DNA from: Aneurinibacillus uraniidurans
GTDB taxonomy: Bacteria; Bacillota; Bacilli; Aneurinibacillales; Aneurinibacillaceae
Reading direction: 5' to 3'
Assembly: GCF_028471905.1 (NCBI RefSeq)
Contig: NZ_CP116902.1
Location: 3,307,001 to 3,371,000 of the forward strand
DNA length: 64,000 bases
A program made the translations under genes and the position numbers. Below, piece by piece: positions 45,932-63,103 of this stretch (positions within the stretch are counted from its first letter, which is position 1; each line of letters starts with the position of its first letter). The notes below the pieces were generated by a model. That model was given only the letters and a program-made list of their open reading frames with translations. It did no database searches and was not told where the DNA came from.

Positions 45932-45939
45932 ATAAGTCC

Positions 45940-46691: not shown

Positions 46692-46692
46692 C

Positions 46693-48240
46693 TTAAATTC
46701 CTAAACGCATATGGTGGATATGAGTTCCATGGATAGAATGAACCGCACATACGAGACATGCATCAAAGGAACGCACCACACTACCTAACTCAGTCGGATC
46801 ATCAGGCCTTACTACTTCTGTGCCCATTAACGCCTGCTCAATCGCACCCAGTTGGTTCATGCTATCACGCGGCGAGACATTCCATGCTGTTGGTGTGATC
46901 ACCTGATAATTAGCCAGTTTACCGTCCTCAATCACATTCCAATGCATCAAGGAGCCACGGGCTGCTTCCGTCAATCCAACACCTTTTGCATTCTGCGGTT
47001 CAGCAGGCTTGATATAGAATGGTTTCTGCAGATCAATCTCCGCTAACCATTCATACATTTTCGGAAGCGTACGCACCGACTCCTGGAATCTAGCAATTGC
47101 ACGCAGGAAAACGCTCGGACCATGTACCGTAAGTAAATCCATCATAAGCGGATCGCCCTCTACAATCATCCGTGACAGCGGCCCGGCTTCCACGACCTGC
47201 CCATCATAACGCGGCGCCTTCGCAAAACTGTACTTATCCTCATCATCTTCTTTATAATCCGGGTCTGTGACACCTTCCCACGGATGGTTTCCACCTTCGT
47301 ATCCTTTATAGAAAGAACTAGAGATATGCTCTTCCACTTTTAAATGGTCAAAAGCGTGTGTTTTCGTGCCGTCGTAGTAGCCTGCAGGCAACCATGCGGT
47401 ACGTTCTTCTACTTTATGGTTATACGGATTATCAGGGTCTTCATACACACCCGAAGAGAGGAACTTTCCAGGTCCAACCCCCAGCTTATCCAGTCCTACA
47501 TCAAGAGCAAACTGAATGAATAGACCGATATCGCTATTGCGATGTGATTCACTCTCCGCAAGCCATACCCGTAAATCGTTTTCTCCGGTAATTTTTAGCC
47601 AGCGCTCAATGGAGCATCCGAGAATAACCGTTTCAACGAAATTCTGAAATTCCTTGAAAATCGCCATTGTTTTGGTCAAGTCTGTTAAATAAGGCGAGCC
47701 TGTAATCCCACCTGGAACCATGAAACTACTATGCGGCCATTGCCCGGCGAAAATGGCATTCACCTCGAGTAAGCGCTTACGTTGCTTCACTGCCTGTGCG
47801 TACGATGTTCCTGTAAAAGGAGCAAATCGCTTTTTCACTTCTTCATAAAAAGGCGACTCTGCATATTTCTCATTGACGAAATCGACTGCAAACAATGCAT
47901 AAAACCATGTCGCATGACTTTGTACATTTTCCGTCGCCTGACAAATATTACGCACCAGTGTCGCATTTTTTGGAGGTGAAACTTGATAAGCGTTTTCCAG
48001 AGCATTTACGGCAGCTCGCAAGTGAGCCTGCCCGCATATGCCACAAACTCGCGGTGTGATGACAAGCGGATCAAGTGGGCTTTTTCCACGTAAAATCACT
48101 TCAATGCCACGAAACATTGTCGCCATGGCACTTGCCTGTACCACTTTGTTTTCCTCAATCACGACTTTAATCTCCAAATCGCCTTCCACGCGGTTAAGCG
48201 GACTGACATTCAGCTTTACTCTTGTTAGCTCTTTCCCCAT
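46693..48240 (-). CDS. [NiFe] hydrogenase large subunit, group 2-like
   Basis: This 515-residue catalytic subunit has four nickel-binding cysteines: RVCGICGQAH near the N-terminus and SFDACLVCAVH near the C-terminus. The S-F-D-x-C-L-V-C form with non-proline after Asp is like HupL/HucL of group 2. The last 14 residues (SIHGTHIHHMRLGI, five His with CAVH included) form the peptide expected to be cleaved after CAVH by the neighbouring endopeptidase. It oxidises H2. The small subunit gene is one base upstream. Confidence 0.93.
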   Translation of the reverse strand: MGKELTRVKLNVSPLNRVEGDLEIKVVIEENKVVQASAMATMFRGIEVILRGKSPLDPLVITPRVCGICGQAHLRAAVNALENAYQVSPPKNATLVRNICQATENVQSHATWFYALFAVDFVNEKYAESPFYEEVKKRFAPFTGTSYAQAVKQRKRLLEVNAIFAGQWPHSSFMVPGGITGSPYLTDLTKTMAIFKEFQNFVETVILGCSIERWLKITGENDLRVWLAESESHRNSDIGLFIQFALDVGLDKLGVGPGKFLSSGVYEDPDNPYNHKVEERTAWLPAGYYDGTKTHAFDHLKVEEHISSSFYKGYEGGNHPWEGVTDPDYKEDDEDKYSFAKAPRYDGQVVEAGPLSRMIVEGDPLMMDLLTVHGPSVFLRAIARFQESVRTLPKMYEWLAEIDLQKPFYIKPAEPQNAKGVGLTEAARGSLMHWNVIEDGKLANYQVITPTAWNVSPRDSMNQLGAIEQALMGTEVVRPDDPTELGSVVRSFDACLVCAVHSIHGTHIHHMRLGI

Positions 48241-48241
48241 A

Positions 48242-49192
48242 TTATTCTCTCCCCTTGATCATTTTGCCTTTCAAGCGTTCTGGAGCCGCCAATTTGGAAA
48301 CAGCTGCAGCAGCAATATACGGTAATGTCGGAACACCCAGAGGAGATTTTTTCGGAATCATCCCGACTTTTTCTGTTTTAAAGTAGTTGAAAGTAGGAAA
48401 GTCAGGCTCTGTACAGCCAAAACAAGGGACACCCGCTCTTGTTTTACTGGATTGACGATTCCATAAAATTCGGTTGCACGAGGAATGCGTATAATGCCCC
48501 TGACAACCAAAGTTAACGGACAGGCACCCTTCCTTGCATCCTAATGTTTCAGCTGCAATTTTATATTCAAAGTACTCATTTCGTGTACATCCCTGGTGAG
48601 TAGTCGTGGAGTATAAATCGAGTGGACGATGGTATTCATCGAGGAGTAAATCTTGAGGTCTAGTTAAAGCGCCAATGATCGTTTGTGTAATCCAATCCGG
48701 ATGCGCTGGACATCCCGACACATTAATGACAGGCAATCCACTTGCTGAGCGATAATTCGCTCCTAAAAATCCGCCTTTATCTTTCCGATGGAACTGCAAG
48801 CCAGTCGCATCAGTCGGATTTGGATCAGCTGCCGGAATTCCCCCGAAGCATGAGCAATCACCAGCAGCGATTACGAAGCGAGCGACTTTGGATAGATCTG
48901 CTACCCAATCTTTGAAAGGCCTTTCACAAAAAACATCATATTTGCCGGTGCCGTTCGGCCCTTGCGCAATGGCACCTTCAATCACCAAAATGTCTAGCGG
49001 CTCATGTCCATCAATGAAATCTCGCAAAATTTTCTTTACGCTATCTCCCATTTCCAGACTTAACGACGGATGCCAGCACAGTTTCACCCCATACTGTGTC
49101 AGCAAATCAATGACATCAGGCTGATCTGCCGTCAAGAAAGCCATCGTATTCCCGCTACACGCCGACCCTTCTAACCAAAGTAAATTTGCCAA
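48242..49192 (-). CDS. [NiFe] hydrogenase small subunit, cytosolic group 2-like
   Basis: The product has 316 residues from a TTG at 49192 with GGGGGAGG five bases upstream, giving a start (ANLLWLEGSACSGNTM) that aligns with HupS. There is no Tat signal, so the enzyme is cytosolic. The proximal cluster site reads C-S-G-N where most small subunits have CxxC, leaving three cysteines (with GDCSC and SGCPAHP). The distal (HQGC, EGCLSVNFGC) and medial (SCNR, PCFGC) cluster ligands are complete. It passes electrons from the Ni-Fe site to an unknown acceptor. Confidence 0.92.
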   Translation of the reverse strand: MANLLWLEGSACSGNTMAFLTADQPDVIDLLTQYGVKLCWHPSLSLEMGDSVKKILRDFIDGHEPLDILVIEGAIAQGPNGTGKYDVFCERPFKDWVADLSKVARFVIAAGDCSCFGGIPAADPNPTDATGLQFHRKDKGGFLGANYRSASGLPVINVSGCPAHPDWITQTIIGALTRPQDLLLDEYHRPLDLYSTTTHQGCTRNEYFEYKIAAETLGCKEGCLSVNFGCQGHYTHSSCNRILWNRQSSKTRAGVPCFGCTEPDFPTFNYFKTEKVGMIPKKSPLGVPTLPYIAAAAVSKLAAPERLKGKMIKGRE

Positions 49193-49227
49193 AATATCCT
49201 CCCCCAATTACACACATAAAATATTGT

Positions 49228-49239
49228 TGTGTATTCACA
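49228..49239 (-). promoter_or_regulatory. TGTG-N4-CACA dyad upstream of the hydrogenase operon
   Basis: TGTGTATTCACA lies 36 bp before the start codon of the first hydrogenase gene. It resembles a shortened CRP/FNR-type or Rex-type half-site pair, but neither consensus is met in full. A TATAAT on the minus strand near 49293 could be the -10. Confidence 0.3.
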
Positions 49240-49456
49240 TAGTAATATGAAATAGGGACTTATGTCATTAATATTTTTACCAATCAAGTAGCGATTATAT
49301 TGCAAATTACCTATACAAACAGTAATTATATTAATAATAAGCTTGTCGCTGTTTGATCTAACTCAGCACAAAATCCATCCTTCAAATATAGTCTTACCAC
49401 GCACTCCACACGTGATATGATACAGTAAATAAAAATTTGCAAAGGAGCAAGGAAAT

Positions 49457-50431
49457 ATGAGATATCGCCGTCTCGGAAAAAGTGGACTTGAAGTATCGAT
49501 ATTAGGATTGGGCACAAATGCATTTGGAAAACGAGCTGATCAAGACACTTCAATCAAGATTATCCATCATGCCTTGGACAGTGGTATTAATTTCATTGAT
49601 ACGGCAAATATTTATGCTAACTCTGAATCAGAGAGAATTATTGGACAAGCTCTGGACGGAAGGCGACAAAACGTTGTGTTAGCGACAAAGGCTGGATTAG
49701 TGCGAGGAACAGGGCCGAATGAGAGTGGCTCATCTCGCTTTCATCTTCAACAGGAGTTAGAAGACAGCCTTAGACGTTTAAAAACGGATTATATCGACCT
49801 GTATCAAATTCACACATTTGACCCGTACACTCCGCTTGAAGAAACGCTGCGTACTTTAGATGATATGGTTCGTTCAGGGAAGGTGCGCTATATTGGAGCA
49901 TCGAACTATGCTGCCTGGGAGTTAATGAAAGCATTAGGTATTAGTGAATGGAAAGGATTTACCCGGTATATTTCCACTCAAATTAGTTATTCTCTTGCCG
50001 ATCGTACACCTGAAAATGAACTTGTTCCCATGTGTGTAGATCAAGGTGTCGGTATTATTCCGTATTTTCCGCTAGCTGGAGGGATTCTAACTGGAAAGTA
50101 TAGTGAAAAAGAGACGGTACCTGTAGGTTCCAGAGCAAATACAGACCCCAACTTCAGCAGATTTCTTGATGATCGAGCCATTACACTCGGACAAAATGTA
50201 AGCAAGCTGGCAGCCGAACATGGTTATACTTCTAGTGCGATTTCGCTGGCCTGGCTCATGGATAGACCCGCTGTCTCCACCGTTATCGTGGGTGCTACAC
50301 GCATCGAACAACTGGAGGATAATTTGAAAAGCGTAAACATAAATCTCGATTCAGAAATAACAAAAGAACTGGATGAACTCAGTAATCCATTTCGTTATGG
50401 TAAACCATTTGCTTTTTACCGTTTACCTTAA
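49457..50431 (+). CDS. Aldo/keto reductase
   Basis: This 324-residue TIM-barrel oxidoreductase has GLGTNAFGKRAD, FIDTANIYANSESERIIGQAL (catalytic Asp and Tyr), VLATKAG (catalytic Lys), DLYQIHTFDPYTPLEETL (catalytic His) and a C-terminal NADPH-binding region VIVGATRIEQLEDNL. It matches the AKR11/YhdN-like group that reduces aldehydes and ketones with NADPH. AAAGGAGCAAGGA precedes the ATG. Monocistronic, ending in a hairpin. Confidence 0.9.
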   Translation: MRYRRLGKSGLEVSILGLGTNAFGKRADQDTSIKIIHHALDSGINFIDTANIYANSESERIIGQALDGRRQNVVLATKAGLVRGTGPNESGSSRFHLQQELEDSLRRLKTDYIDLYQIHTFDPYTPLEETLRTLDDMVRSGKVRYIGASNYAAWELMKALGISEWKGFTRYISTQISYSLADRTPENELVPMCVDQGVGIIPYFPLAGGILTGKYSEKETVPVGSRANTDPNFSRFLDDRAITLGQNVSKLAAEHGYTSSAISLAWLMDRPAVSTVIVGATRIEQLEDNLKSVNINLDSEITKELDELSNPFRYGKPFAFYRLP

Positions 50432-50453
50432 ATTAATTGATATCACCAAATCT

Positions 50454-50483
50454 AAGGGGCGACTGACAAAAGTCGTCCTTTGT
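50454..50483 (+). terminator. Terminator of the aldo/keto reductase gene
   Basis: AAGGGGCGACT pairs with AGTCGTCCTT, followed by TGTTG. Confidence 0.7.
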
Positions 50484-50516
50484 TGTCCGTCCCCCAAATG
50501 GCTAGCGAAAATTTGG

Positions 50517-50966
50517 CTAATCAACACGACTGTCATCCAACATCATTTTTTGCTCAAATGGAGCTGTCAGCGCAATCAAGGTATAGGAATAGCCAAAATC
50601 AGCGCATCTTTCCGAAAAAGCCACTAGTTCTTCGTTGGTTTCAGTGACTACCTTCAGCATGTAGTTGTACTCTCCGCTGATCCGATACATATCCGTCACC
50701 TCGGGCGATTGCTTGCAGAACTCAATAAAGGCAGAGCATTTCTTCGTCCGGAACATGACGAAAGCAGTCGTGTTTTTACCTAGCTTCGCCTGAGAGATGG
50801 CAGCATGATACCCCGTAATCACGCCTTGCTCTTCTAGCCTTCTTACCCTCTCTTTTACCGCGGGCTGCGTCATCCCAATAACTCTTCCTATTTCAACCAT
50901 TGAAATACGAGCATTTTCGTGCAGAAGATGTAAAATTTTGTAGTCTATCTGATCCAGATGAATCAC
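50517..50966 (-). CDS. Lrp/AsnC-family transcriptional regulator
   Basis: The product has 149 residues. The N-terminal helix-turn-helix contains LDQIDYKILHLLHENARIS, GMTQPAVKERVRRLEEQGVI. The C-terminal RAM domain (60-140) has FVMFRTKK, VTDMYRISGEYNYMLKV and a likely effector-binding cleft for an amino acid. The start is GTG at 50966, with AAAGG very close. It is divergent from the MFS transporter at 51145, which it probably regulates together with itself. Confidence 0.88.
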   Translation of the reverse strand: MIHLDQIDYKILHLLHENARISMVEIGRVIGMTQPAVKERVRRLEEQGVITGYHAAISQAKLGKNTTAFVMFRTKKCSAFIEFCKQSPEVTDMYRISGEYNYMLKVVTETNEELVAFSERCADFGYSYTLIALTAPFEQKMMLDDSRVD

Positions 50967-51144
50967 CCTTTCATTTCTTTAAGTAAATAACTCTAATTAA
51001 CTTGAATATTTAAAGCGATATAGCAGAAATAACTTCATTTATCTATGTAAACTATAGAATTATTTGCGTAATATGTCACTAGATCAAACACTTGTCGCAC
51101 CCGCGCGGGAATCGGCAAAACTTTTCGTTTAAGGAGTGACGCTA

Positions 51145-52320
51145 TTGTCTTGCTATACAGTAGTTTATTTACTTGCCTTGGGTGAGTTCATGGTGGGCAC
51201 TGCCGAATCGATTGTCACCGGAATCATCGATATGATTGCGAAAGACACGCAGGTCCCACTCTCACTCGCCGGGCAATTGGTAACCGGTTTTTCTCTAGCA
51301 TTTGCCTTTGGTTCACCGCTAGTAATCGCTTTTACCGCAAGTATGGAGCGAAAGAAACTGCTTATCACAGTTCTTCTTCTCTTCATCGCTGGCAATCTGC
51401 TCGCATTTATCAGTCCTAGCTTTTCTGTTTTGATGACTTCCCGAATCCTGCTCGGCTTAAGTGGAGGCGTCTATACCGTGGTGGCGCTTGCTGTCGCTGC
51501 CAACCTCGCTCCACCCGAGAAAAAAGGGAGTTCGATTGGGATCATTCTCATGGGCTTTAGTATCTCGCTAGTTCTAGGAGTACCTGCCGGGACCATAGCA
51601 GGCGAACTGTGGGGCTGGCGTTCTGTTTTCGCCATCATTGCGGCATTAAGCATCATCCCGGTTCTCTGTATTTCGCTGTACCTTCCCAAGCTGTCAGGAC
51701 AGAAGGCTATCCCTTTGCGGACACAGCTTGCTTCTCTCAAAAACAATAGGATTATCACGGCTTTGCTGGTTTCGTTCCTTTTTGTGACGGGGTACTCAAC
51801 AGTCTATACGTACATTACACCACTCTTGCAAACTACTTCAGGGATGTCGACAGCTGTTGTCAGCACAACGCTATTATTGGCCGGCGTGGCCAGTACAGCA
51901 GGGTCACGTATAGGAGGATTTTCCACGGATAAACGGGGAATACGACCCACGCTTTACATAAGCTTATTCCTCCATGCAGCAATTTTGATCATCCTCCCCT
52001 TCATGGCGCAGCTTATTTTTGGTGCCATGCTTGCGGTGATGGTTTGGATGTGTGCCGTACAAATGACTGTGCCTGCCCAGCAATATTATCTAATTACCTT
52101 GTCACCTCAGTCGTCCGAAATCGCGCTAAGTGTCAATACTTCTATCTTCCAATTCGGATTGGCCGCAGGAGCAGGAATGGGTGGTCTGATCGTGAATCAT
52201 TATTCGGTTGCCCCTCTCGGTTGGGTTGGAGGAGCGTCAGTGCTCATAAGTCTTTTTCTCGTATGGTTGTCCTTCTCATCAGAGGGGTCTGCCACATCTA
52301 CAACAGTCATATCAAAATAA
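51145..52320 (+). CDS. MFS transporter, DHA1 drug/amino-acid efflux type
   Basis: The product has 391 residues and 12 membrane helices. The start is a TTG at 51145 with AAGGAG eight bases upstream. Helix 1 has LLALGEFMVGTAESIVTGI, and the antiporter motif C is in helix 5 as GFSISLVLGVPAGTIAGE. It resembles the AraJ/YdhP/NepI branch of proton-coupled exporters (arabinose, purine nucleosides, amino acids, drugs). The divergent Lrp-type regulator suggests an amino-acid-like substrate (inference). Confidence 0.88.
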   Translation: MSCYTVVYLLALGEFMVGTAESIVTGIIDMIAKDTQVPLSLAGQLVTGFSLAFAFGSPLVIAFTASMERKKLLITVLLLFIAGNLLAFISPSFSVLMTSRILLGLSGGVYTVVALAVAANLAPPEKKGSSIGIILMGFSISLVLGVPAGTIAGELWGWRSVFAIIAALSIIPVLCISLYLPKLSGQKAIPLRTQLASLKNNRIITALLVSFLFVTGYSTVYTYITPLLQTTSGMSTAVVSTTLLLAGVASTAGSRIGGFSTDKRGIRPTLYISLFLHAAILIILPFMAQLIFGAMLAVMVWMCAVQMTVPAQQYYLITLSPQSSEIALSVNTSIFQFGLAAGAGMGGLIVNHYSVAPLGWVGGASVLISLFLVWLSFSSEGSATSTTVISK

Positions 52321-52323
52321 GAA

Positions 52324-52358
52324 AACAGTCAGGGAGGAAACGCCCTGACTGTTTTTTT
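52324..52358. terminator. Bidirectional terminator between the MFS gene and kimA
   Basis: AACAGTCAGGG pairs with CCCTGACTGTT, followed by TTTTTT. Confidence 0.88.
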
Positions 52359-52359
52359 G

Positions 52360-54186
52360 TTAGGATTTTAAATGGAATGGCACTTTAACAATTATGATAT
52401 CCTCCCGATTCAACAACGCACGTTCAATAAAGTAAGCGGCCTGGTTATGAAGCATCCGGTGCCACGTTTTTTTCGTAATAAAGATCGGGAGAACAACGGT
52501 GATTTCATATTTCCCATCGACACGCCGTTGAACCTGGTCAATAAAGCGAAGCAATGGATTTTTGATGCTTCGATAACGTGAATAAAAAGTTTCCAGACGA
52601 ATCCCAGGATTCCACGCTTGCCATTTTTCCCTGAACTTCTCATCTTCGTCTTTATCAATGGAAACATGAAACGCGATAATCTGCTCGGGCGGGCTAGATT
52701 CTAAGGCATATTCGATCGAGTTGCGTACGACTTGATTGATTCCACCTACCGGAACAATCATCAGCGTACTCTTTAGATGCAGCGGGTGATCGATCTCCAT
52801 CTTTAATTGGGTAGCAACGCTTACGTAATGCCTTTTAATGCTAAACATCATCCATACAAGAACCGGAATAATAATGGCGATGGTCCAGGCACCTGCTGAA
52901 AACTTCTCCACAAGAGAAATGATTACAACTGAAAAGGACATGATCGCGCCTAAAGCATTGATGAATACCTTCGATTTCCACCCTGAAGGCTTTTCTATCC
53001 TCCACTTCTTAACCATACCCAGTTGCGCGATCGTAAACGAAAGAAATACCCCGATGGCATACAACGGAACCAGACTATCAGTCACAGCATCAAATCCAAT
53101 AATCAACAAAATTGACATGAGCGACAGAACCATAATGCCGACATTAAGCGAAAGTCTGTCACCCCGCGTGGAAAACTGTCGGGGCATATAGCCGTCCTGT
53201 GCCACAATGGCAGCCAGAAGTGGAAAGCCCGCAAAGGCTGTATTCGTAGCCAGAAACAGGACAAGCGCTGTCGAAATTTGTGTCGAATAATACATCCAGG
53301 AATGTCCAAACAGGTGAGAAGCAACCTGAGAAAGAACCGTTGGATTCCCGGTTGGACTTGGTGCAACTCCATATAAATTGGCCAGAATTGTGATACCCAT
53401 AAACATGACAAACAACAAAATCCCCAAGTATAAGAGCGTGGTTTTCGCATTCTTCACCGTTGGGTCTCGAAAGACTGGAGTGGCGTTGGAGATCGCCTCT
53501 ACACCGGTCAAAGCCGAACAGCCCGATGAAAAAGCACGCAGCAGAACATAGAGGGTAACTCCCTGTGGAATGTGCGCCGGCATCGGAATAGAGGTAGAAG
53601 GAATGCCATGCACGACCACCTGATACAGACCAGCAAGTAACAAGGCAAAAATATTAAAAATAAAAAAGTATGTTGGAAAAGCAAAAACTGTGCCGGCTTC
53701 TCGAACCCCTCTCATATTGATAAAAGCGACAAGAAGAACACCCAGCACAGAAAGCTCAACATTCCACGGTATCAGATTCGGAAAGGCGGATGTAATAGCA
53801 GCCACTCCCGCTGTAGCGGATACAGCTACTGTTAACGTATAGTCGACGAGCAGTGCGGCACAGGCAATCAGTGCCATCAGCGGATTAAAGTTTTCCTTCG
53901 CTACCGCATACGCCCCGCCCCCCCTCGGGTATCCATTAATCACCTGACGATACGAAATAATCAGGGTAAAGAGGAGAATCACAATGATCAATGAAACAGG
54001 AAGACTAAACCACCTGGCGGCTACTCCATAAGCAACAAGCGCAATTAAAATCGATTCTGTCCCGTATGCTACCGAGGATAAAGCATCGGATGAAAGGATC
54101 GGCAAGGCCATCCATTTCGGCATTCTCTCTTCCTGCAACGCTTCTGTTGACAGCGGGCGGCCGAATAAAAAATGTTTGATTTTCAT
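52360..54186 (-). CDS. kimA: High-affinity potassium importer KimA
   Basis: The product has 608 residues from the ATG at 54186 (TTGGAG eleven bases upstream); a GTG four codons earlier is less likely. The APC-superfamily membrane domain has LSSDALSSVAYGTESILI, YPRGGGAYAVAKENF, FSSGCSALTGVEAISNATP and NTAFAGFPLLAA, the same conserved blocks as KimA (YdaO) of Bacillus subtilis. The cytosolic USP-like tail (from about 465; STLMIVPVGGINQVV..ALHV-like) binds c-di-AMP in KimA. Unlike Bacillus subtilis, no ydaO riboswitch is visible upstream, so control may be at protein level. Confidence 0.9.
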   Translation of the reverse strand: MKIKHFLFGRPLSTEALQEERMPKWMALPILSSDALSSVAYGTESILIALVAYGVAARWFSLPVSLIIVILLFTLIISYRQVINGYPRGGGAYAVAKENFNPLMALIACAALLVDYTLTVAVSATAGVAAITSAFPNLIPWNVELSVLGVLLVAFINMRGVREAGTVFAFPTYFFIFNIFALLLAGLYQVVVHGIPSTSIPMPAHIPQGVTLYVLLRAFSSGCSALTGVEAISNATPVFRDPTVKNAKTTLLYLGILLFVMFMGITILANLYGVAPSPTGNPTVLSQVASHLFGHSWMYYSTQISTALVLFLATNTAFAGFPLLAAIVAQDGYMPRQFSTRGDRLSLNVGIMVLSLMSILLIIGFDAVTDSLVPLYAIGVFLSFTIAQLGMVKKWRIEKPSGWKSKVFINALGAIMSFSVVIISLVEKFSAGAWTIAIIIPVLVWMMFSIKRHYVSVATQLKMEIDHPLHLKSTLMIVPVGGINQVVRNSIEYALESSPPEQIIAFHVSIDKDEDEKFREKWQAWNPGIRLETFYSRYRSIKNPLLRFIDQVQRRVDGKYEITVVLPIFITKKTWHRMLHNQAAYFIERALLNREDIIIVKVPFHLKS

Positions 54187-54329
54187 CCCGTTTTCCACTC
54201 CAATTATAATTGATTGTTTTTTCCGCTCTCGAACTCGAGATTAGGCCGACCTTTTATTTATTTCATGTGACTTATTATAAGCAGATTATTTTAAAAAAAA
54301 CACAATCAAGAATTCAAATCCAAAATCAC

Positions 54330-54460
54330 CAGCCAAGGAAGATTGTATCCGATATTCCTCGTATCAAACAAGCTGTGACAGAAGTTAACGAGCACATAAG
54401 AATGATTAAGGAGACAAAAAAATGTGCAGCCCCTTTCAAACAAAGATCGCTGCACATTTT
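54330..54460 (+). other. Possible gene remnant upstream of kimA
   Basis: The plus-strand frame here reads HQPRKIVSDIPRIKQAVTEV then NEHIRMIKETKKC, a soluble-protein-like stretch with no credible start, ending in the terminator. AAGGAGACAAAAAAATG could also start a 17-codon peptide that ends inside the hairpin. It is either a decayed 3' end or chance. Confidence 0.25.
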
Positions 54461-54470
54461 TTATGTTACT
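54417..54470. terminator. Terminator of the kinase/metalloprotease cassette
   Basis: AAAAAATGTGCAGC pairs with GCTGCACATTTTTT. The T-runs on both strands serve the minus-strand gene at 54461, whose stop codon lies inside the stem. Confidence 0.8.
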
Positions 54471-55285
54471 TTTAGTTTATAGAGAAGATAACTAAACCCT
54501 AGCGTTATAAGTGAAAAGAGTACCGCTATACTCGAAAATGCAAGAACATAGGCATTATATTCTGCAAGTTGAACAATCATCTTATAGCTGTTCACATGTA
54601 GAAATCCCGCAATAATATTAAACACAACAAGCAAAGCGAAAATCATGACGAGTCCATTTGCGGAATTTTGGATATCTGCTTTACTTAACGCAATGTGGGA
54701 AGAAATACTGATAGCCAGCACAATAAACAGCCAAAACGAAGGAGTCGTCAGGTTATGCAGAGTAAAGAGACTTTTACTTATCACGATCACTGCTTCACCT
54801 ATCGTTTTTAACACATTGATATCTACCTTCTCTATAGATATATGTTGATGAATTTGAGCTTTAAAAGTAGCATACGATTGCGGCACAAGAAGATACATGC
54901 CTACTATTAAAGAAGCAATTCCACTAAATATAGGCCCTAGCCCGATAAAGAAGTTGCCGACTTGCTGATAAACACTGGCTGGATTATATTGATGCTCAAC
55001 ATAGCCAAGCACACCATCTGGACTATTGAGCTGCAACAGCTTTACCTTTGTTACCTTGTGTCCCCATAGGATGCATTGGATCAGATGTCCAATTTCGTGA
55101 ATCGGGGTACCTATCCAGGCGGTCAGGAGCACTCCTTTTCGTCCCAACGCTCGAACCAAATATGTATTTGAGTATTTTTCCAAATATCCTAAGAGAAAGC
55201 CAATAAAAATAAAAACACCTACCAAATAAAGCATTTCTACAAAGCTTATCAGGAGGGTGTTACTAAATGATACTACGATATTCAT
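54461..55285 (-). CDS. Membrane protein with HEIGH zinc-protease motif, M50-like
   Basis: The product has 274 residues and six or more hydrophobic helices. GTPIHEIGHLIQCILWGHK carries HExxH at a membrane boundary, the metal site of site-2-protease-like or M50B peptidases. A later helix LGPIFSGIASL replaces the usual NxxPG, and SSHIALSKADIQN could provide the third ligand Asp. No PDZ domain is seen. Activity is uncertain. It lies 50 bp downstream of the kinase gene on the same strand, with AAGGAG before the ATG. Confidence 0.65.
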   Translation of the reverse strand: MNIVVSFSNTLLISFVEMLYLVGVFIFIGFLLGYLEKYSNTYLVRALGRKGVLLTAWIGTPIHEIGHLIQCILWGHKVTKVKLLQLNSPDGVLGYVEHQYNPASVYQQVGNFFIGLGPIFSGIASLIVGMYLLVPQSYATFKAQIHQHISIEKVDINVLKTIGEAVIVISKSLFTLHNLTTPSFWLFIVLAISISSHIALSKADIQNSANGLVMIFALLVVFNIIAGFLHVNSYKMIVQLAEYNAYVLAFSSIAVLFSLITLGFSYLLYKLKVT

Positions 55286-55335
55286 CGAAATCTCCTTGTC
55301 ATAATGCCGTGCTGTTTACGTAACCTATGATTTCA

Positions 55336-56055
55336 TTAGCATCCAAACGCATGAATAAAATCCGTCTCTATATCACTAATGCTTTCATACACTGTCTCAA
55401 GCCCCATTAATCTCTTCAAAAACATTTTCTGCTTTTCCTGTAATGGTAACTCTTTATACCAGGGTAAATTCTTTTTGCCTCCATCTCTTTGAAAAGAAGA
55501 ATAAAGCAAGTACAAGAAAAAATCTCCCAGATACGAATAGTCTAGGTCATATCTATATCGATTGTTATCTGCAAATCTTGCCAATCCAAAGTCAATAAGA
55601 ACTACGTTATAGCCATCTATAAGAACATTAGGTATCCTTATATCCCGATGTACAATACTATTTTCATGTAGGTACTTTATAATATTTATGAGTTTGATGC
55701 CAATATTATAAAATTCTTCAGTTGAAAATTCATGATGATCCTTGAAAATCATATCCTTAACCGTAACTCCTGACTTGAGTTCCAGGACAAATCCATAAAA
55801 GCTCCCTTGGTTTATTACCCCTAAAAACTCAGGGATTCTTTCATCCCTGAGTTTTGAAAGGATAACCGCCTCGTATATATTCTTGTTTGAATCCTTGATA
55901 AACAAGCTTTTTTTGAACTTCTTAATAATAACCTTGCTGCCTGTGTCGGTTTTGGCAAGAAAGCATAACCCATATCGACCTTCGCCAACTATTTTTTCAA
56001 TCGTATATTCTCCAAGTTTTTTTCCACGATATTTTATTTCACTAAAATAACGCAT
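55336..56055 (-). CDS. Eukaryotic-like Ser/Thr protein kinase, single domain
   Basis: This 239-residue soluble kinase domain has the glycine loop VGEGRYGLCFLAK, the ATP lysine in VIIKKFKK, catalytic HRDIRIPNVLID (with Arg in place of the usual Lys after HRD) and the metal motif LIDFGLARFADNN. There is no membrane segment or sensor domain. It is short at the C-terminal lobe, similar to small Firmicute kinases such as YabT without its tail. The ribosome site AGGTGATCC lies inside the end of the zinc-ribbon gene, four bases away, so the pair is translationally linked. Confidence 0.88.
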   Translation of the reverse strand: MRYFSEIKYRGKKLGEYTIEKIVGEGRYGLCFLAKTDTGSKVIIKKFKKSLFIKDSNKNIYEAVILSKLRDERIPEFLGVINQGSFYGFVLELKSGVTVKDMIFKDHHEFSTEEFYNIGIKLINIIKYLHENSIVHRDIRIPNVLIDGYNVVLIDFGLARFADNNRYRYDLDYSYLGDFFLYLLYSSFQRDGGKKNLPWYKELPLQEKQKMFLKRLMGLETVYESISDIETDFIHAFGC

Positions 56056-56059
56056 AGGA

Positions 56060-56428
56060 TCACCTATTCAACTGGTTTCCACATTGAGAACAAAATTTAG
56101 AGTTCGGTGGCATTTTTCCTCCACAATTTGAGCAGAACAATTCCACTTTAACCTTTTCTCCACAATTCAAGCAAAATTTTGAGCCAGCCGGGATTTGACT
56201 GTTGCACTTGTTGCAATTTAGCGATCCTTGATTTGGAAATGGCTGATTTTGCATAGGTGAATGGTTGTGTTGGTGTCTGTAATGACCATAATGGCCTCTA
56301 GAACTGCTTCTTGAACCAATCATATCAAACAAGTTGCCTAAAATTCCTTTTTTCTTGTAGTGACTACTTCCATGATTTCCATATTTATAATGGCTCTTTT
56401 TTGAAGAAGATCTTGAGAAAAAGCTCAT
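56060..56428 (-). CDS. Double zinc-ribbon protein with basic, low-complexity N-terminus
   Basis: The product has 122 residues. The first 65 are rich in Ser, His, Tyr, Lys and Gly (SFFSRSSSKKSHYKYGNHG, RGHYGHYRHQHNHS). Two zinc ribbons follow, CNKCNSQIPAGSKFCLNCG and CSNCGGKMPPNSKFCSQCG. The Ser/Tyr-rich head is an obvious candidate substrate for the adjacent kinase (inference). It is the first gene of the cassette, with AAGGAGG before the ATG. Confidence 0.75.
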   Translation of the reverse strand: MSFFSRSSSKKSHYKYGNHGSSHYKKKGILGNLFDMIGSRSSSRGHYGHYRHQHNHSPMQNQPFPNQGSLNCNKCNSQIPAGSKFCLNCGEKVKVELFCSNCGGKMPPNSKFCSQCGNQLNR

Positions 56429-56544
56429 ATTTCCATACCTCCTTATATAATCTATTTATTTTCTATTGTTATCCTACATGTTAACAGCCCTCTAACCCAA
56501 ATTCCACCACTACCAAATTAAAGCTTTTTTATCTCCTGTAATCT

Positions 56545-57237
56545 CTATTCGTTCAAAGACTGATTTACTGCTTCAATTGCATGCAGTGCTGTTGTATCAA
56601 ACACTGGAACTTCCACATCCTCTTGCTTTACCAGTAATCCGATTTCAGTGCAGCCCAAAATAATGCCCTTCGCTCCATTTTCCACTAAACTTCTCATTAC
56701 CTTCTTGTAACATTCCCTAGATGTCGGTAGGACCTTACCTACGCATAACTCTTCATAAATGATCTTGTTCACAACTTCTCTGTCACTCTCATTTGGCACT
56801 ATCACTCGTATTCCATTCGACTCCAAGCGTGACCTGTAAAAATCTTGTTCCATCGTGTATTTTGTACCTAGCAAACCTACTGAATCGATTCCTTGCTGTT
56901 TAATCGCCACAGCAGTTGCGTCCGCAATATGTAAAATCGGAATGCTGATTTTTTGCTGTATGACATCTATTACCTTATGCATCGTATTGGTGCAAATAAT
57001 AATAAAGTCTGCTCCCCCTTTTTCCAGAGAATATGCAGCATCACCCAATACTTCTCCAGCCTTGTTCCACTCTCCCATCGACTGATAATGCTCAATTTCA
57101 GCAAAATCCACACTATATAACAAGCACTTTGCGGAGTGTAATCCACCTACTCTATTTTTTACTTCTTCATTAATAATCCGATAATATTCAACCGATGATT
57201 CCCAACTCATTCCTCCGATAAGACCAATCGTTCTCAT
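56545..57237 (-). CDS. Aspartate/glutamate racemase family protein (RacX/YgeA-like)
   Basis: The product has 230 residues. It starts RTIGLIGGMSWESSVEYYRI, with the two catalytic cysteines in IICTNTMHKV and ILGCTEIGLL. The family interconverts L- and D-amino acids without a cofactor; RacX-type members act broadly on non-canonical D-amino acids used in wall remodelling, others on aspartate. The substrate is not decided. GAGGGAGGAG precedes the ATG. It lies 116 bp upstream of the zinc-ribbon gene and may be separate from it. Confidence 0.88.
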   Translation of the reverse strand: MRTIGLIGGMSWESSVEYYRIINEEVKNRVGGLHSAKCLLYSVDFAEIEHYQSMGEWNKAGEVLGDAAYSLEKGGADFIIICTNTMHKVIDVIQQKISIPILHIADATAVAIKQQGIDSVGLLGTKYTMEQDFYRSRLESNGIRVIVPNESDREVVNKIIYEELCVGKVLPTSRECYKKVMRSLVENGAKGIILGCTEIGLLVKQEDVEVPVFDTTALHAIEAVNQSLNE

Positions 57238-57466
57238 GTTACTCCTCCCTCGAATGAAATCTTTAGCATAGAAACTGCTCCCTCTAACTATTCTCCTACT
57301 CTGACTATAAAGTATTTATCGTCTTCCTGCATATCACCCTTTCTTCACCGCTCAATTCCACCCTTACTTAAATAATAAACAAATATAGTTAAGGTAAAAA
57401 TGCCCACAATCCTCATTTCTAGACTATGTGTTCTTATCCATAATCTTAGATTTCCATTTAGTCCCC

Positions 57467-57545
57467 TTGACACTATTTAATAAGATTTATAATCAAAAAT
57501 ACCTATTCAACCAATCGTTTAGACGCATTATGATAGACTTATAAA
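57467..57545 (+). promoter_or_regulatory. Candidate promoters of the c-di-GMP riboswitch transcript
   Basis: TTGACA (57467-57472) and TATAAT (57488-57493) are both perfect, but only 15 bp apart. A second pair, TTTAGA (57518-57523) and TATAAA (57540-57545) with a 16-bp spacer, sits directly before the aptamer. Either could start the leader. The rest of 57238-57560 has no gene. Confidence 0.5.
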
Positions 57546-57562
57546 AAATAACTAATGTGAAA

Positions 57563-57701
57563 AGGGCAAATCATCGGGAAACCATGAGACGCAAAGCCAA
57601 GGGCCTAAAGCATGACTGTTTTTTAATATGCATGGCAGCCGGTTACCACAAGGACTCATAGTTTTCCTTACCTATGAACCTTGTTTAAGGTTCATTTTTA
57701 T
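57563..57701 (+). promoter_or_regulatory. c-di-GMP-I (GEMM-I) riboswitch with terminator
   Basis: The aptamer reads GGGCAAATCATCGGGAAACC, then GAGACGCAAAGCC, AAGGGCCTAAAGCATG, and CATGGCAGCCGGTTACC: all GEMM-I blocks in order. The expression platform has ATGAACCTT (57674-57682) paired with AAGGTTCAT (57687-57695) and then TTTTATTTT, a terminator. The upstream TCATAG can instead pair with CTATGA and open that stem. It controls the giant repeat protein 36 bp further on. Confidence 0.95.
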
Positions 57702-57736
57702 TTTGTCCCTTTTCATGGAAAGGCAGGGATGCTATC

Positions 57737-60700
57737 GTGAGAAAACGTTTTTTATCAAAATCTTCGTTTTTAGCATTTTTTCTTCTCGTATTCCAGGTAT
57801 TTATCTCCATACCAAACGTATTTGCGGAAGGTATCTTACCGCCAAGTAACCTTGCAGTCCAGCTTGTGACACCGAGTGACATTAAACTAACGTGGAGTTC
57901 TGTTTATGGGGCAACCGGTTACAACATCTATACTATAACCGATGGTCAGTTAACTCTATCAGGAACAAGCAAAACAACAAGCTACAGTATTAATAACCTC
58001 CCTGAAGGAACCTATAGCTATGTTGTATCTACTCTAAGCGCAGAAGGTGAGTCGGGTCCATGCGCCCCTGTACAGGCTGAAATTGTCTATCCAGATATGC
58101 AGTCTCCTTCCACTCTCACTTATACGATTCAAAACGGAAACAACATTGTTCTAAACTGGTCCGCCTCCCAGAATGCTCAAAGCTATAATGTCTATCAAAT
58201 CTCACCGGAAGACCAAAAGACATTACTTACAACTGTAACTGGACGAACCTATACTGTAAGCAATGTTCCTGCCGGAAACTATAAATATGCAGTTTCTGCA
58301 GTAAATTCCGCATATGGGGAATCACCACTTTCTGCACCTGTGCAGGTCGAGGTCACTCCCACGACAATGAATGCCCCTCGTAATTTTACGTATACGGTAA
58401 CGAATGGTAATGATGTTAACCTGCGATGGGATGCTGTTACCTACGCAGACAGCTATAAGGTTTACCAAGTTGTTGATGGGGAAAAGGTGCTAAAAAGCAC
58501 AATAACCGGTACAACAGTTACGTATACGAACATGCCGGCTGGTGATTACAAATATGAGGTTCACTCATACAGTAATCGTTTCGGCGAATCAACAGAAGGC
58601 AGTCAGCTTTCCGTTACAGTTGGAGCAGTTACAATGGCTGCACCAGGCAACTTTACGTACAAGTTACAAAACATTAATGACCTTGTCTTAACCTGGGGAG
58701 CCGTACCAAATGCAACCGGCTACAAGGTTTACCAAGTTATTGACGGACAAAAAACATTAAAAAGTACCGTAACCGGCACAACAGTTACATATACAAATAT
58801 GCCGGCTGGTGATTATGTTTATGAAGTTCACTCGTACAGTGATCGTTTCGGTGAATCAGCAGAAGGCAGTCAGCTTTCCATTACAGTTGGAGCAGTTACA
58901 ATGGCTGCGCCAGGCAACTTTGCCTATAAAATTCAAAACGGTAATGATATTGTACTAACCTGGAATTCTGTTCCTAATGCAAATAGCTATAAAGTGTATC
59001 AAATCGTAAACGGTCAAAAAGTTTTAAAAAGTACAGTGACTAGCACAACAGTTACGTATGCCAGCATGCCAGCTGGTGATTACAAATATGAAGTTTACTC
59101 TTTTTCTACTCGTTTTGGTGAATCACAGGAAGGTAGCCAAGTATCCTTCTCTCTTGCTCTGCCTACTATGGAGCCACCGGCAAATCTGCTTCAAACAATA
59201 AAAAGTGCTACAGAGTTTAGCCTAAGCTGGGACCCTGCTGCCTATGCAACAAATTATAAAGTCTATCAAATTACAAACGGACAAAAAGTCTTAAAAAGTA
59301 CCGTAACAGGTACAAGTGTTTCGTATACGAACATGGCACCTGGTGAATACAATTTTGAGATTCATTCCTACTCTTCCCGTTTTGGAGAATCGGTAGAGGG
59401 AAGTAAACTAACCGTAACTTTAAATGGCCAAACGATGGAAGCACCAGCAAACCTAACGTACAGTATTAATAACGGCAATGACATTACCCTGAAATGGGCT
59501 AGCGTACCTTATGCTACAAGCTATAAAATCTATCAAGTCATTGATGGAGAAAAAGTTTTAAAAAGTACAGTCACAGGTACAAGCGTTACGTATACAAACG
59601 TGCCGGCTGGTGATTACAAATATGTTGTTACCTCCATCTCGACCCTTTTGGGTGAATCACCAAGTGGGGCTGAAACTAGCTTCTCCCTGACTTTACCGAC
59701 GATGGATGCCCCAGGAAACTTTGCATACAAGATTCAAAATGTTAACGATGCTGTATTTACATGGGGAGCTGTTCCTAATGCAAACAGCTATAAACTTTAT
59801 GAGTTAATTGACGGGCAGAAAGTATTAAAAACGACGGTGACAACTCTTACTACAACACTGCTTAACATTCCTGCCGGCGAACATACTTACGTGATTCATT
59901 CTTTCAGCTCTCGTTTCGGCGAATCAGCAGAAGGAAGCCAGGTTTCATTTACCCAGGTCTTCCCTACAATGCAGAAGCCGGATAATCTAACATATACTAT
60001 CGCGAACGGTAACGATATTAGCTTAAAGTGGAATACTGCCACTTATGCAACTGCTTATAATGTTTACCAAATTATTGATGGACAGCCTGTTTTGAAAAAG
60101 ACAGTGACAGGTACATCCGTAACATTCACAAATATGCCTGAAGGTGACTATACGTATGAAGTACGCTCATTCAGCAGCCGCTTTGGCGAATCACCAGAGG
60201 GAAGCCAGGTTTCCATCAAGCTTACTCAAAATGTAATGCAGGCACCGGGCAACCTGACACAAAGTATTACAAACGGAAATGATATCACTTTAAAATGGAA
60301 TAGTGTTACTTATGCAACTGCTTATAAGGTTTACCAGGTTATTGATGGACAGCCCGTTCTGAAAAAGACGGTGACGAGTACATCCGTAGCATTCACAAAT
60401 ATGCCTGAAGGCGACTATACGTATGAAGTACACTCATTCAGTGATCGTTTTGGCGAATCATCAGAAGGTGCTAAGCTCTCATTTACGCTGGACTTCCCAA
60501 CGATGCAGGCACCGGGCAATCTGACGCAGAGTATTACAAATGGAAATGACATCACCTTAAAATGGAACGGTGCTACTTACGCAACTGCTTACAAAGTGTA
60601 CCAAATTGTTGATGGACAGCCCGTTCTGAAAAAGACGGTAACGAGTACAAGCGTAACCTTTACCGACATGCCTCAAGGCGATTATACGTATGAAGTACAC

Positions 60701-63103
60701 TCATTCAGTGATCGTTTTGGCGAATCACCAGCAGCCGGTACCCTGAGCTTTACACTTACATGGCCTGTAGTGCAACCACCAGTGCTGCAATCATCTTTGT
60801 TCAATGCAAACAATATGACATTCACCTGGAAGGCAGTTACTTGGGCGAATGAATACCGTCTTTACAAGGTAACAGGTGATAGCAAACAACTGCTTTATAA
60901 AGGAACAGCGCTTACTAACACGGTTTACAATTTAGCAGAAGGCAATCATTCTTTCCAGGTAACTGCATACAGCACACGCTTTGGTGAATCTGCGCCTTCT
61001 AATCTTATTACCGAGAAAATTGTTTACCCGATTATGCAAGCACCTACAGCTAGCATAAAGCTGCTAAGTTCAACAGAAGCTTTAATTTCATGGAACTTTA
61101 TCACCTATGCAAACGGCTATAATGTGTATGAAATTATTGACGGTAAACCGGTACAATTAACTAAAAATCTAAACAATCTATCGTATAAGCTTTCTAACCT
61201 TACGTATGCAGACCATGAATACTATGTTACCTCGTTCAGTAATTCGTTTGGAGAATCAGAACGATCAAATACTGTAATCGCCAAGCTAATCATAGATACG
61301 GAAGCACCGGTAACAACGGCTAAAGTGACTCCTGCTTCTGCATCAACTGGCTGGGCGAATCAAAGCGCTGTTGTCTCATTGTCTGCAACAGACAACGAGG
61401 TAGGCGTTGCGAAAACATTCTATTCTCTTGATGGTGGCGAATTTGTAGAAGGGACAGACCTGACAATTAGCGAGGAAGGCATTCACAAACTCTCTTTCTA
61501 CTCTGTCGACAAAGTTGGCAACAAAGAAGCAGCTAAAACAATTGACATCAAAGTTGACAAAACAGCACCGGTAACAAAAGCAAATGAAATTAGCGATACG
61601 TTTACTCAGTCATCCAGCATTAAACTGAGTGCGACAGATGCACTCAGCGGTGTAGCCAAAACATTCTACTCGATTAACGGCTCTGATTATAAGGAAGGAA
61701 CATCCTTTACGGTAAGCGGAGATGGAACTAACAAAATCTCCTATTATTCAATAGACCAGGCCGGAAATACGGAAAAACCGCAAACTATCGAGGTAAAGGT
61801 TGATAACACGGCTCCTGTTACTACTTCTGATGCTCCTACAACATGGAGTAAGGACGATGTAACAGTTTCTCTAACCGCAACAGATACAGAGAGTGGTGTA
61901 GCCAAAACATTCTACTCGATTAATGGCTCTGAGTATAAGGAAGGAACATCCTTTACGGTAAGCGGAGATGGAACCAACAAAATCTCCTATTATTCAATAG
62001 ACCAGGCCGGAAATACAGAAAAACCGCAAACTGTCGAGGTAAAGATTGATAAAATGGCTCCTGTTACTACTTCTAATGCTCCTACAGCGTGGAGTAAGGA
62101 CGATGTAACAGTTTCTCTAACCGCAACAGATACAGAGAGTGGTGTAGCCAAAACATTCTACTCGATTAATGGCTCTGAGTATAAGGAAGGGACATCCTTT
62201 ACGGTAAGCGGAGATGGAACTAACAAAATCTCCTATTATTCAATAGACCAAACTGGAAATACGGAAAAACCGCAAACTATCGAGGTAAAGATTGATAAAA
62301 CCGCTCCTGTTACTACTTCTGATGCTCCTACAACATGGAGTAAGGACAATGTAACAGTTTCTCTAACTGCAACAGATACACAGAGTGGTATATCTAAGAC
62401 ATTCTACTCGATTAATGGCTCTGAATATAAGGAAGGGACATCCTTTACAGTAGATAAAGAAGGGATTACCCAAATTTCCTACTATTCAGTTGACCAGACT
62501 GGAAACATTGAAAAGCCTCAAAATGCTGAGGTAAAAATTGACCGTACAGCTCCAATTGTCACAATGGATGTAAATAAGGAAATCAAGCTTGGCACTAGTC
62601 TGTTACTAGAATACACAGCAAAAGATGACCAATCAGGTATTGCTTCTGAAAAGATGGTTGTCACCGATCCAACTGGGACATCTAGTACCGTAATGAACGG
62701 TAGCTCTATTACGATTAATAAACAGGGTGTCTATAATGTTTCGGTAACGGTAACTAATGCTGCAGGCCTTAGCACTACAATTCAAAGAAAGTTTTCCGTA
62801 TACATTCCTGCCACAATTGAAGTTACACCTAAAATTGTAAAAGGAAATAGTGGAGTGTTCACAGTCCGTGTTGATCTTCCTTCAGGCTATAGCACTCAAG
62901 GCTTTGATTTAAATACAGCAGAACTTAATGGTGTGAAAGCATTATCTTCGAATAATGGATACTACAATCAGGCAAAACTTGGCCAGTTTAAGTTTGAACG
63001 TTCCGATTTTACCTGGTCTACACCTGAAGTTGCTGTTGAGTTCCGTGGTTATGTAAATGGAGCTTTAGTAGTTGGGCAAACCATGGTTAAAGTACAAAAG
63101 TAA
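57737..63103 (+). CDS. Giant secreted FN3/Ig-repeat protein, probable adhesin or matrix protein
   Basis: The product has 1788 residues from a GTG at 57737 (CAGGGATG upstream). The signal peptide ends near NVFA (residue 30). Residues 35-1188 hold about 13 FN3-like domains of 88-89 residues with recurring YKVYQ-VIDGQKVLKST and RFGES-EGSQ. Residues 1189-1690 hold five OmpL47/Ig-like units of 82 residues (TAPVTTSDAPTTWSKDDVTV; KTFYSINGSEYKEGTSFTV) and a diverged sixth. The last 100 residues are unrelated. No LPxTG, SLH or membrane anchor is present, so it is secreted or held non-covalently. Expression is c-di-GMP-controlled. Confidence 0.9.
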   Translation: MRKRFLSKSSFLAFFLLVFQVFISIPNVFAEGILPPSNLAVQLVTPSDIKLTWSSVYGATGYNIYTITDGQLTLSGTSKTTSYSINNLPEGTYSYVVSTLSAEGESGPCAPVQAEIVYPDMQSPSTLTYTIQNGNNIVLNWSASQNAQSYNVYQISPEDQKTLLTTVTGRTYTVSNVPAGNYKYAVSAVNSAYGESPLSAPVQVEVTPTTMNAPRNFTYTVTNGNDVNLRWDAVTYADSYKVYQVVDGEKVLKSTITGTTVTYTNMPAGDYKYEVHSYSNRFGESTEGSQLSVTVGAVTMAAPGNFTYKLQNINDLVLTWGAVPNATGYKVYQVIDGQKTLKSTVTGTTVTYTNMPAGDYVYEVHSYSDRFGESAEGSQLSITVGAVTMAAPGNFAYKIQNGNDIVLTWNSVPNANSYKVYQIVNGQKVLKSTVTSTTVTYASMPAGDYKYEVYSFSTRFGESQEGSQVSFSLALPTMEPPANLLQTIKSATEFSLSWDPAAYATNYKVYQITNGQKVLKSTVTGTSVSYTNMAPGEYNFEIHSYSSRFGESVEGSKLTVTLNGQTMEAPANLTYSINNGNDITLKWASVPYATSYKIYQVIDGEKVLKSTVTGTSVTYTNVPAGDYKYVVTSISTLLGESPSGAETSFSLTLPTMDAPGNFAYKIQNVNDAVFTWGAVPNANSYKLYELIDGQKVLKTTVTTLTTTLLNIPAGEHTYVIHSFSSRFGESAEGSQVSFTQVFPTMQKPDNLTYTIANGNDISLKWNTATYATAYNVYQIIDGQPVLKKTVTGTSVTFTNMPEGDYTYEVRSFSSRFGESPEGSQVSIKLTQNVMQAPGNLTQSITNGNDITLKWNSVTYATAYKVYQVIDGQPVLKKTVTSTSVAFTNMPEGDYTYEVHSFSDRFGESSEGAKLSFTLDFPTMQAPGNLTQSITNGNDITLKWNGATYATAYKVYQIVDGQPVLKKTVTSTSVTFTDMPQGDYTYEVHSFSDRFGESPAAGTLSFTLTWPVVQPPVLQSSLFNANNMTFTWKAVTWANEYRLYKVTGDSKQLLYKGTALTNTVYNLAEGNHSFQVTAYSTRFGESAPSNLITEKIVYPIMQAPTASIKLLSSTEALISWNFITYANGYNVYEIIDGKPVQLTKNLNNLSYKLSNLTYADHEYYVTSFSNSFGESERSNTVIAKLIIDTEAPVTTAKVTPASASTGWANQSAVVSLSATDNEVGVAKTFYSLDGGEFVEGTDLTISEEGIHKLSFYSVDKVGNKEAAKTIDIKVDKTAPVTKANEISDTFTQSSSIKLSATDALSGVAKTFYSINGSDYKEGTSFTVSGDGTNKISYYSIDQAGNTEKPQTIEVKVDNTAPVTTSDAPTTWSKDDVTVSLTATDTESGVAKTFYSINGSEYKEGTSFTVSGDGTNKISYYSIDQAGNTEKPQTVEVKIDKMAPVTTSNAPTAWSKDDVTVSLTATDTESGVAKTFYSINGSEYKEGTSFTVSGDGTNKISYYSIDQTGNTEKPQTIEVKIDKTAPVTTSDAPTTWSKDNVTVSLTATDTQSGISKTFYSINGSEYKEGTSFTVDKEGITQISYYSVDQTGNIEKPQNAEVKIDRTAPIVTMDVNKEIKLGTSLLLEYTAKDDQSGIASEKMVVTDPTGTSSTVMNGSSITINKQGVYNVSVTVTNAAGLSTTIQRKFSVYIPATIEVTPKIVKGNSGVFTVRVDLPSGYSTQGFDLNTAELNGVKALSSNNGYYNQAKLGQFKFERSDFTWSTPEVAVEFRGYVNGALVVGQTMVKVQK
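57839..61300 (+). repeat. Tandem FN3-domain coding repeats (about 13 units of ~267 bp)
   Basis: Each unit ends in a codon block for P-T/A-M followed by x-A-P-x-N-F/L. Units 3-5 and 9-11 are most alike at nucleotide level (shared blocks such as GTTTACCAAGTTATTGATGG), suggesting recent duplication inside the gene. Confidence 0.85.
61301..62545 (+). repeat. Tandem 246-bp Ig-like coding repeats
   Basis: Units begin near 61565, 61811, 62057 and 62303, exactly 246 bp (82 codons) apart. The units at 61811 and 62057 differ at only a few bases. A related, less similar unit precedes them at 61301 and another follows from 62546. Confidence 0.9.

Follow-up and report, generated by a model that had tools for sequence, protein, structure and literature searches.

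A PrkD/YbdM-family kinase and its small serine-rich partner in Bacilli, with a zinc-ribbon variant in Aneurinibacillus uraniidurans

A stretch of 64,000 nucleotides from Aneurinibacillus uraniidurans (contig NZ_CP116902.1, positions 3,307,001 to 3,371,000; hereafter the window) encodes a stand-alone Hanks-type kinase, P0002, and directly upstream of it a zinc-ribbon protein, P0003. On sequence grounds, P0002 belongs to the PrkD/YbdM kinase family, which in most of the sampled genomes carrying it is accompanied by a small basic protein, usually preceded by a promoter of the extracytoplasmic function (ECF) sigma type. The explanation considered the most probable, with moderate confidence, is a two-gene unit in which the kinase would phosphorylate, or be recruited by, a dedicated and probably disordered partner, in most cases induced by envelope stress. 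In the window, this partner appears to be replaced by a divergent version carrying a zinc ribbon.

The kinase family and its small partner

P0002 matches the Pfam family Pkinase with 88.2 bits (cut-off 31.7), its structure model has a pLDDT of 91.5, and its Foldseek matches are kinase folds. K45, D138, N143 and D155-F156-G157 are invariant in the 15 aligned relatives, all of which share the loop H-x-D-x-R-x-x-N, with Arg for the usual Lys (15/15). This Arg occupies the position of Lys168 in PKA. The initial annotation had rightly noticed HRDIR in place of HRDxK, although it is no oddity: HRDIR is a family trait, because Arg is found in 98 of 102 kinase loci (a set in which genome G045 is counted twice and two plasmid records are included) and in PrkD (YbdM) of Bacillus subtilis. 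The remaining four loci (L112, L117, L127, and L147) have Ser at this position, and a partner-like gene is still adjacent to them.

The assignment to the family rests on a profile built from the 15 rows, P0002 included and YbdM left out. P0002 scores 286 bits and YbdM 265.7, while the other Hanks-type matches of the window genome (G000) and of the same-genus genome G005 reach at most 107. In the YbdM sequence used, K54, S148, T213, T241, and S243 agree with PMC4166321, and both peptides encoded by the primers of PMC3033389 are contained in it. P0002 thus resembles PrkD in profile, in its stand-alone kinase domain and in its HxDxR loop, but differs in forming part of a deep side clade and in having a partner with a zinc ribbon. 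The kinase of G426, the only one of the zinc-ribbon type with such a figure, is 34% identical to YbdM, whereas the closest YbdM relative found (L080, from Mesobacillus foraminis) is 56% identical and has a convergent Ser/Arg-rich small gene beside it. At E ≤1e-45, a family kinase is present in 99 of 398 sampled genomes of the class, with one copy each. Two plasmid records carry one at E 1e-20, and no phage record matches at E 1e-10.

The genes of many of these kinases adjoin one for a small basic protein in which Ser, Tyr, His, Lys, and Arg are abundant; in most of the sampled kinase genomes it is a peptide of approximately 53–90 residues. The alignment of 28 such partners reveals an amphipathic N-terminal helix (of the MLKKLLK type) and a YG..HYK tail, together with at least one Ser block, and up to several, each with Arg, Lys or His on its flanks and often with Asp as its last residue (YSSSD). 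Two residues of the Ser block, S23 and S24, are invariant in all 28 rows. The N-terminal amphipathic moment is 0.66, compared to 0.33 for shuffles of the same residues, with p <0.1 in 28/28. The partner gene is easily overlooked, because its products match no Pfam family (0/28) and give just two chance-level matches in NCBIfam, and the (incomplete) gene table of one named plasmid record holds no entry for it. No description of a small gene beside ybdM/prkD was recognised in the accessible parts of the open-access literature searched.

With two partner profiles, a partner was found adjacent to the kinase (≤900 nt) in 61 of the 99 kinase genomes and elsewhere in 30, and went undetected in eight, three of which (the window genome, G290, and G045) have a related-looking variant adjacent. 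The 61 adjacent pairs comprise 37 convergent ones, 22 with the partner upstream on the same strand (21 of them within 25 nt), and two with the partner downstream on the same strand. Five changes on the kinase tree are needed for the convergent arrangement and two for the same-strand-upstream one. The linkage is therefore not a single inherited accident: the two genes have changed their arrangement and yet stayed together.

The co-occurrence also holds at the level of whole genomes. Profile A2, which defines the canonical small partner family, matches 55 of the 398 genomes at E 1e-6, all of them with the kinase (55/55), and none of the 299 genomes devoid of it; in 27 of these 55, the copies lie solely more than 3 kb from the kinase or on another contig. 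In a second sample of 130 genomes from one order, 51 have the kinase, 32 match A2 (32/32 with kinase), and none of the 79 kinase-free genomes does. Fifteen of these 51 kinase genomes also belong to the first sample. Among the 36 new ones, 33 have an adjacent match, and the other three hold a weaker adjacent candidate below the cut (G483), the zinc-ribbon version (G426), and no partner (G444). The unlinked copies and the second sample matter because the partner profile was trained on kinase neighbours. The counts of 0/299 and 0/79 are valid for profile A2 at E 1e-6 only, because the second profile (a Paenibacillaceae-like type) was run on kinase loci alone. The sampled genomes are unevenly related, and Fisher's p consequently overstates the co-occurrence.

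Promoters of the partner genes

Eight sigma patterns were looked for in the 120 nt preceding each of 110 distinct partner genes, and only the sigma-W-type one stood out, with 80 of the 110 upstream regions against 1.1 (at most 3) from shuffles, which keep dinucleotides roughly only. The pattern TGAAAC-N16/17-CGTA, with up to one mismatch, thus occurs in 80/110 partner upstreams (56 of them exact), compared to 14 of 653 control upstreams (7 exact). These controls precede other open reading frames (ORFs) in the same loci and may include true ECF promoters. Such a site was found in 83 of 111 genomes and 23 of 30 families, and its −10 element lies mostly 30–46 nt ahead of the partner start codon. 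No enrichment was observed upstream of the 110 partner genes for the sigma-E, sigma-K, sigma-G, and sigma-F patterns.

Sorted by origin, the promoter precedes 18/21 partners upstream of the kinase on the same strand, 29/35 convergent ones, and 13/14 from further profile-A2 loci not already counted. It is found at 0/2 partners downstream on the same strand, 0/3 in loci labelled elsewhere, and 1/2 others. In the convergent loci, the kinase gene itself has such a site upstream in 2/37.

The exact ECF-type matches among the control ORFs (six rows, four of them distinct: L106, L114, L116, and L250) precede genes that, named by reading, encode YvlB-like, S-layer, and stomatin-like proteins. Proteins of these kinds are known from sigma-W regulons, and these control matches support the specificity of the pattern.

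The −10 element of sigma-W is CGTA. The −35 element TGAAAC is as published (PMC6713349), and the partner promoters resemble those of the sigma-W regulon (spo0M, sigW-rsiW) in both elements. Another likeness is found in the gene order: in 8 of 102 loci, the next gene downstream of the family kinase, in the same orientation, is Spo0M-like (named by reading, and annotated as 'sporulation protein' in NZ_CP089998). The spo0M gene of B. subtilis belongs to the core sigma-W genes and to those that depend most strongly on this factor (PMC3498285). The string ybd is absent from the main text of the paper on the sigma-W regulon of B. subtilis. Unlike members of this regulon, the pair in the window has no such promoter.

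An additional observation concerns G246 (L149, L166), in which the kinase gene of this family is fragmentary and contains an in-frame TAG, and the partner gene lies about 6.5 kb away with an ECF-type promoter. This genome is a possible case of kinase loss.

The zinc-ribbon variant in the window

The three same-strand ORFs described in the initial annotation are all present, with gaps of 4 nt between the genes of P0003 and P0002 and of 50 nt between those of P0002 and P0001, a polytopic HEXXH protein (Table 1). P0003 exceeds the Pfam cut-offs for both Zn_Ribbon_1 (47 bits) and DZR (43.5 bits).

Table 1. Location of the features of the window discussed in the text
Feature	Position	Strand	Description or basis
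Partner protein P0003, 122 aa	56060-56428	-	Four CxxC; Ser/Tyr/His/Lys-rich head at about residues 1-65, double zinc ribbon at residues 72-120
Double zinc ribbon of P0003	56069-56215	-	Eight Cys; Pfam
Kinase P0002, 239 aa	55336-56055	-	Stand-alone PrkD/YbdM-family Hanks-type kinase; Pfam, alignment, family profile, structure model, Foldseek
Catalytic loop HRDIRIPN of P0002	55627-55650	-	Alignment; family signature
P0001, 274 aa	54461-55285	-	Polytopic HEXXH protein, site-2-protease-like; neighbour, outside the two-gene unit
HEIGH motif of P0001	55085-55099	-	ORF translation
Junction of kinase and HEXXH genes	55323-55324	no strand	blastn homology to same-genus G005 ends here

The zinc-ribbon and kinase genes recur as a pair, lying 4–11 nt apart or overlapping in three genomes (the window genome, G290, and G426). 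In G045, the counterpart is a protein of 76–81 aa without a zinc ribbon, beside a kinase of the variant type. Thirteen positions are invariant in the four variant partners (4/4). With the composition correction turned off, each of the four variant heads outscores 200/200 composition shuffles on the canonical profile. A post hoc shared-motif test gave a shuffle frequency of about 0.0014 for P0003, and a stricter form of the motif is absent in G045. With P0003 alone as the query, other zinc-ribbon proteins were retrieved, and the matches lay mainly in the ribbons. The idea of a circularly permuted peptide as the variant head was discarded, with a doubled profile performing no better than a single one.

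In the kinase tree, the kinases of the window genome, G290, and G045 form one clade (100/100), although the latter two genomes belong to other families, whereas those of four other genomes of the window's genus belong to another; G005 has no kinase at the cut-off. G426 is not included in this tree, and the long branches around the clade call for caution. Horizontal transfer of the zinc-ribbon/kinase pair is plausible, because of its patchy distribution in the genus and the junction with respect to G005. The low GC content of the genes had been taken initially as a hint of transfer. The AT-richness is real, with 35.0% GC for the pair compared to 44.4% for the window (the lowest 1.3% of stretches of equal size). 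By itself, however, it is no mark of transfer, because the HEXXH gene, likewise low in GC (37.8%), keeps its place in the same-genus genome, in DNA that is 91% identical.

Two of these loci have further features in their surroundings. In G045 (L107, 1422-2246 and 3001-3717), the variant kinase and its 76–81 aa partner lie just downstream of a Spo0A-like response regulator, with one small ORF in between. In G290 (L099, 4862-7294), the pair is directly followed by a gene whose product, named by reading, would be an HD-domain Cas3.

Function of the pair, rival explanations and neighbouring genes

The favoured explanation would operate as follows. Envelope stress would induce the peptide, which would bind the membrane through its amphipathic helix and the kinase through its YG..HYK tail. 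The kinase would then phosphorylate the Ser blocks, altering the charge and the binding of the peptide. Recruitment or activation of the kinase by the peptide may occur as well. In the window, a divergent version to which a zinc ribbon is fused would stand in place of the peptide, and the pair would have been acquired together, upstream of an unrelated membrane-protease-like gene. The early suggestion that the kinase phosphorylates the low-complexity head of the zinc-ribbon protein survives as the best working hypothesis, backed by the broad pairing of the family with a low-complexity protein. The sequences show the pairing, the co-occurrence, the pattern of promoters and the family of the kinase; phosphorylation, membrane binding, recruitment, disorder, the stress function and the direction of the signal are inferred from them.

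More tentatively, and with rather less confidence, the PrkD-type kinases of Bacilli and an ECF-sigma-induced, membrane-binding SR-like peptide (joined in some lineages by Spo0M) could constitute a phospho-signalling system dedicated to envelope stress, comparable in bacteria to a kinase that has a disordered substrate of its own. The zinc-ribbon version of the window could in that case be an alternative input head of this system that is spreading horizontally. Work on PrkD/YbdM goes back to at least 2011 and has yielded scattered substrates, among them DegS and CodY (PMC3033389, PMC12583987), and no strong phenotype of the knock-out has been described (PMC3033389). A testable partner for this kinase can now be proposed: the small gene, with a profile that matches none of the kinase-free genomes of either sample and in most cases with an ECF promoter, is an obvious candidate for its private substrate or activator.

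Several observations weigh against this explanation. First of all, the phosphorylation of the partner, or its binding by the kinase, is a prediction from sequence. The reported substrates of YbdM/PrkD (DegS, CodY, SpoIIAB, HprK, and DnaC) are unrelated to the partner (PMC3033389, PMC12583987, PMC4166321, PMC4205851), and the expression of prkD is reported to correlate with that of dnaB, pointing to replication (PMC4205851); a peptide partner leaves both these targets and the replication link unexplained. No partner was found in 5 of the 99 kinase genomes, nor in 1 of the 36 of the second sample. The promoter is present in only 19 of the 33 hold-out partner upstreams from that second sample, and is missing from the partners of close YbdM relatives (L044, L080, L109, L110, and L111). 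Nor was it found at P0003 (the best site has four mismatches) or in G290, G426, and G045, and the stress reading is not directly transferable to the window because of these four variant loci. Finally, neither P0003 nor the G045 protein matches profile A2 at E 10 with default corrections and maximum sensitivity. For this reason P0003 is, by sequence, a variant and not a member of the canonical small partner family, and the homology of its head to the canonical peptides is only weakly suggested.

Among the alternatives, the one that survives best, while still rather unlikely, is that the partner acts not as a substrate but as an activator or anchor. Its helix would place the kinase on the membrane, or its basic region would bind nucleic acid, switching the kinase on as DNA does for YabT. 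The amphipathic start common to the 28 partners agrees with such a role, and so does PrkD itself, which lacks a transmembrane helix and whose activation is stated as unknown (PMC4166321). YabT provides the precedent, as it is activated through a basic DNA-binding region (PMC6333020). The stress-type promoter of the convergent loci also precedes the peptide gene and not that of the kinase. On the other hand, the strict conservation of S23 and S24 suits a substrate, and both roles may hold.

A further alternative, distinctly improbable, considers the partner as a component of the coat or spore that the kinase would phosphorylate, in the way CotH phosphorylates CotB and CotG. The kinase family of CotH is a different, atypical one. 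The linkage of CotH with Ser/basic-rich repetitive proteins is nevertheless similar on paper, the composition of the partner resembling the serine-rich repeats of CotB and CotG (PMC7821199), and this precedent shows that such a pairing of a kinase with Ser/basic-rich proteins can work. SpoIVA is present in 28/30 kinase genomes compared to 26/50 genomes without the kinase, an association that may reflect ancestry, and the Spo0M-like gene of the eight loci and the Spo0A-like gene near the G045 pair point in the same direction. However, the partner promoters are of the ECF type and not of the late sporulation type: the four sporulation sigma patterns lack enrichment, the sigma-W type being found instead, and spo0M itself is a core sigma-W gene. 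Moreover, the SpoIVA-negative genomes G058 and G268 retain both the kinase and the partner.

It is very improbable that the kinase signals through the HEXXH membrane protein P0001, as the initial annotation had proposed by joining the three genes into a cassette with a membrane protease as its output. The arrangement in the window invites this reading, with both genes on the same strand and close together, but the trio was not found in any related genome examined. Relatives of P0001 were located at 15 named loci (from Neobacillus, Shimazuella, Mesobacillus, Litchfieldia, and Bacillus) and in 4 of 150 other genomes (G005, G103, G010, and G134), and none of these 19 loci, two of the named ones being short, contains a PrkD-family kinase. 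No relative of P0003 lies beside them in the loci of these four genomes with 1.5 kb flanks, and no relative of P0001 was found at the other kinase or partner loci examined, with flanks mostly of 1.5–4 kb. The gene surroundings of the P0001 relatives vary among the ten loci compared. In addition, G005 keeps kimA and the HEXXH gene and lacks the zinc-ribbon/kinase pair. By blastn, the similarity of its DNA to the window extends as far as 54315 (94.6% over 52001-54315), resumes at 54400 (91.5%) and ceases at 55323, 13 nt short of the kinase gene's end, so that the homology breaks between the kinase and HEXXH genes.

P0001 is probably a relative of site-2 proteases, judging from its model. HExxH is invariant in the 16 aligned rows, P0001 among them, just as the catalytic residues are in the 15 aligned kinases. 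In the model (pLDDT 86.9), the motif lies in a long helix (model residues 49–73), as in RseP and SpoIVFB, which occupy the top four rows of the structural comparison (three for RseP and one for SpoIVFB, Z 5.8–5.2; the next row has Z 4.2). P0001 differs from them in scoring 15.6 bits against Peptidase_M50 (PF02163), below the Pfam gathering score of 27.2, and in giving no Foldseek match at E 0.001. In G103, a further stretch that matches the HEXXH protein (L035, about 2778-2948) is truncated, contains an in-frame TGA and lies 11 kb away from the intact gene.

Defence was also suggested at first, and the least probable alternative is anti-phage defence by a kinase module like MAD6 or PD-T4-6. 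Although the PADLOC model mad6 (E 5.8e-28) and many PD-T4-6 models match P0002, the mad6 match covers residues 14–170, and the best PADLOC stretches all fall in the kinase domain. Further components of a defence system were not seen, and the family occurs once per genome across a quarter of the class sample (99/398) with no phage-record match at E 1e-10.

Other features of the window lie apart from the pair. An Rfam scan of 50000-60000 retrieved a c-di-GMP-I riboswitch at 57555-57650 on the plus strand (65.2 bits) and nothing else. It precedes a plus-strand gene (57737-63103) for a protein of 1788 aa that reads as secreted, with fibronectin-like repeats, an order that suggests c-di-GMP control of a putative adhesin. 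Farther away, 35400-49300 holds genes that read as those of a NiFe hydrogenase, together with hyp maturation genes and a selD-like gene.

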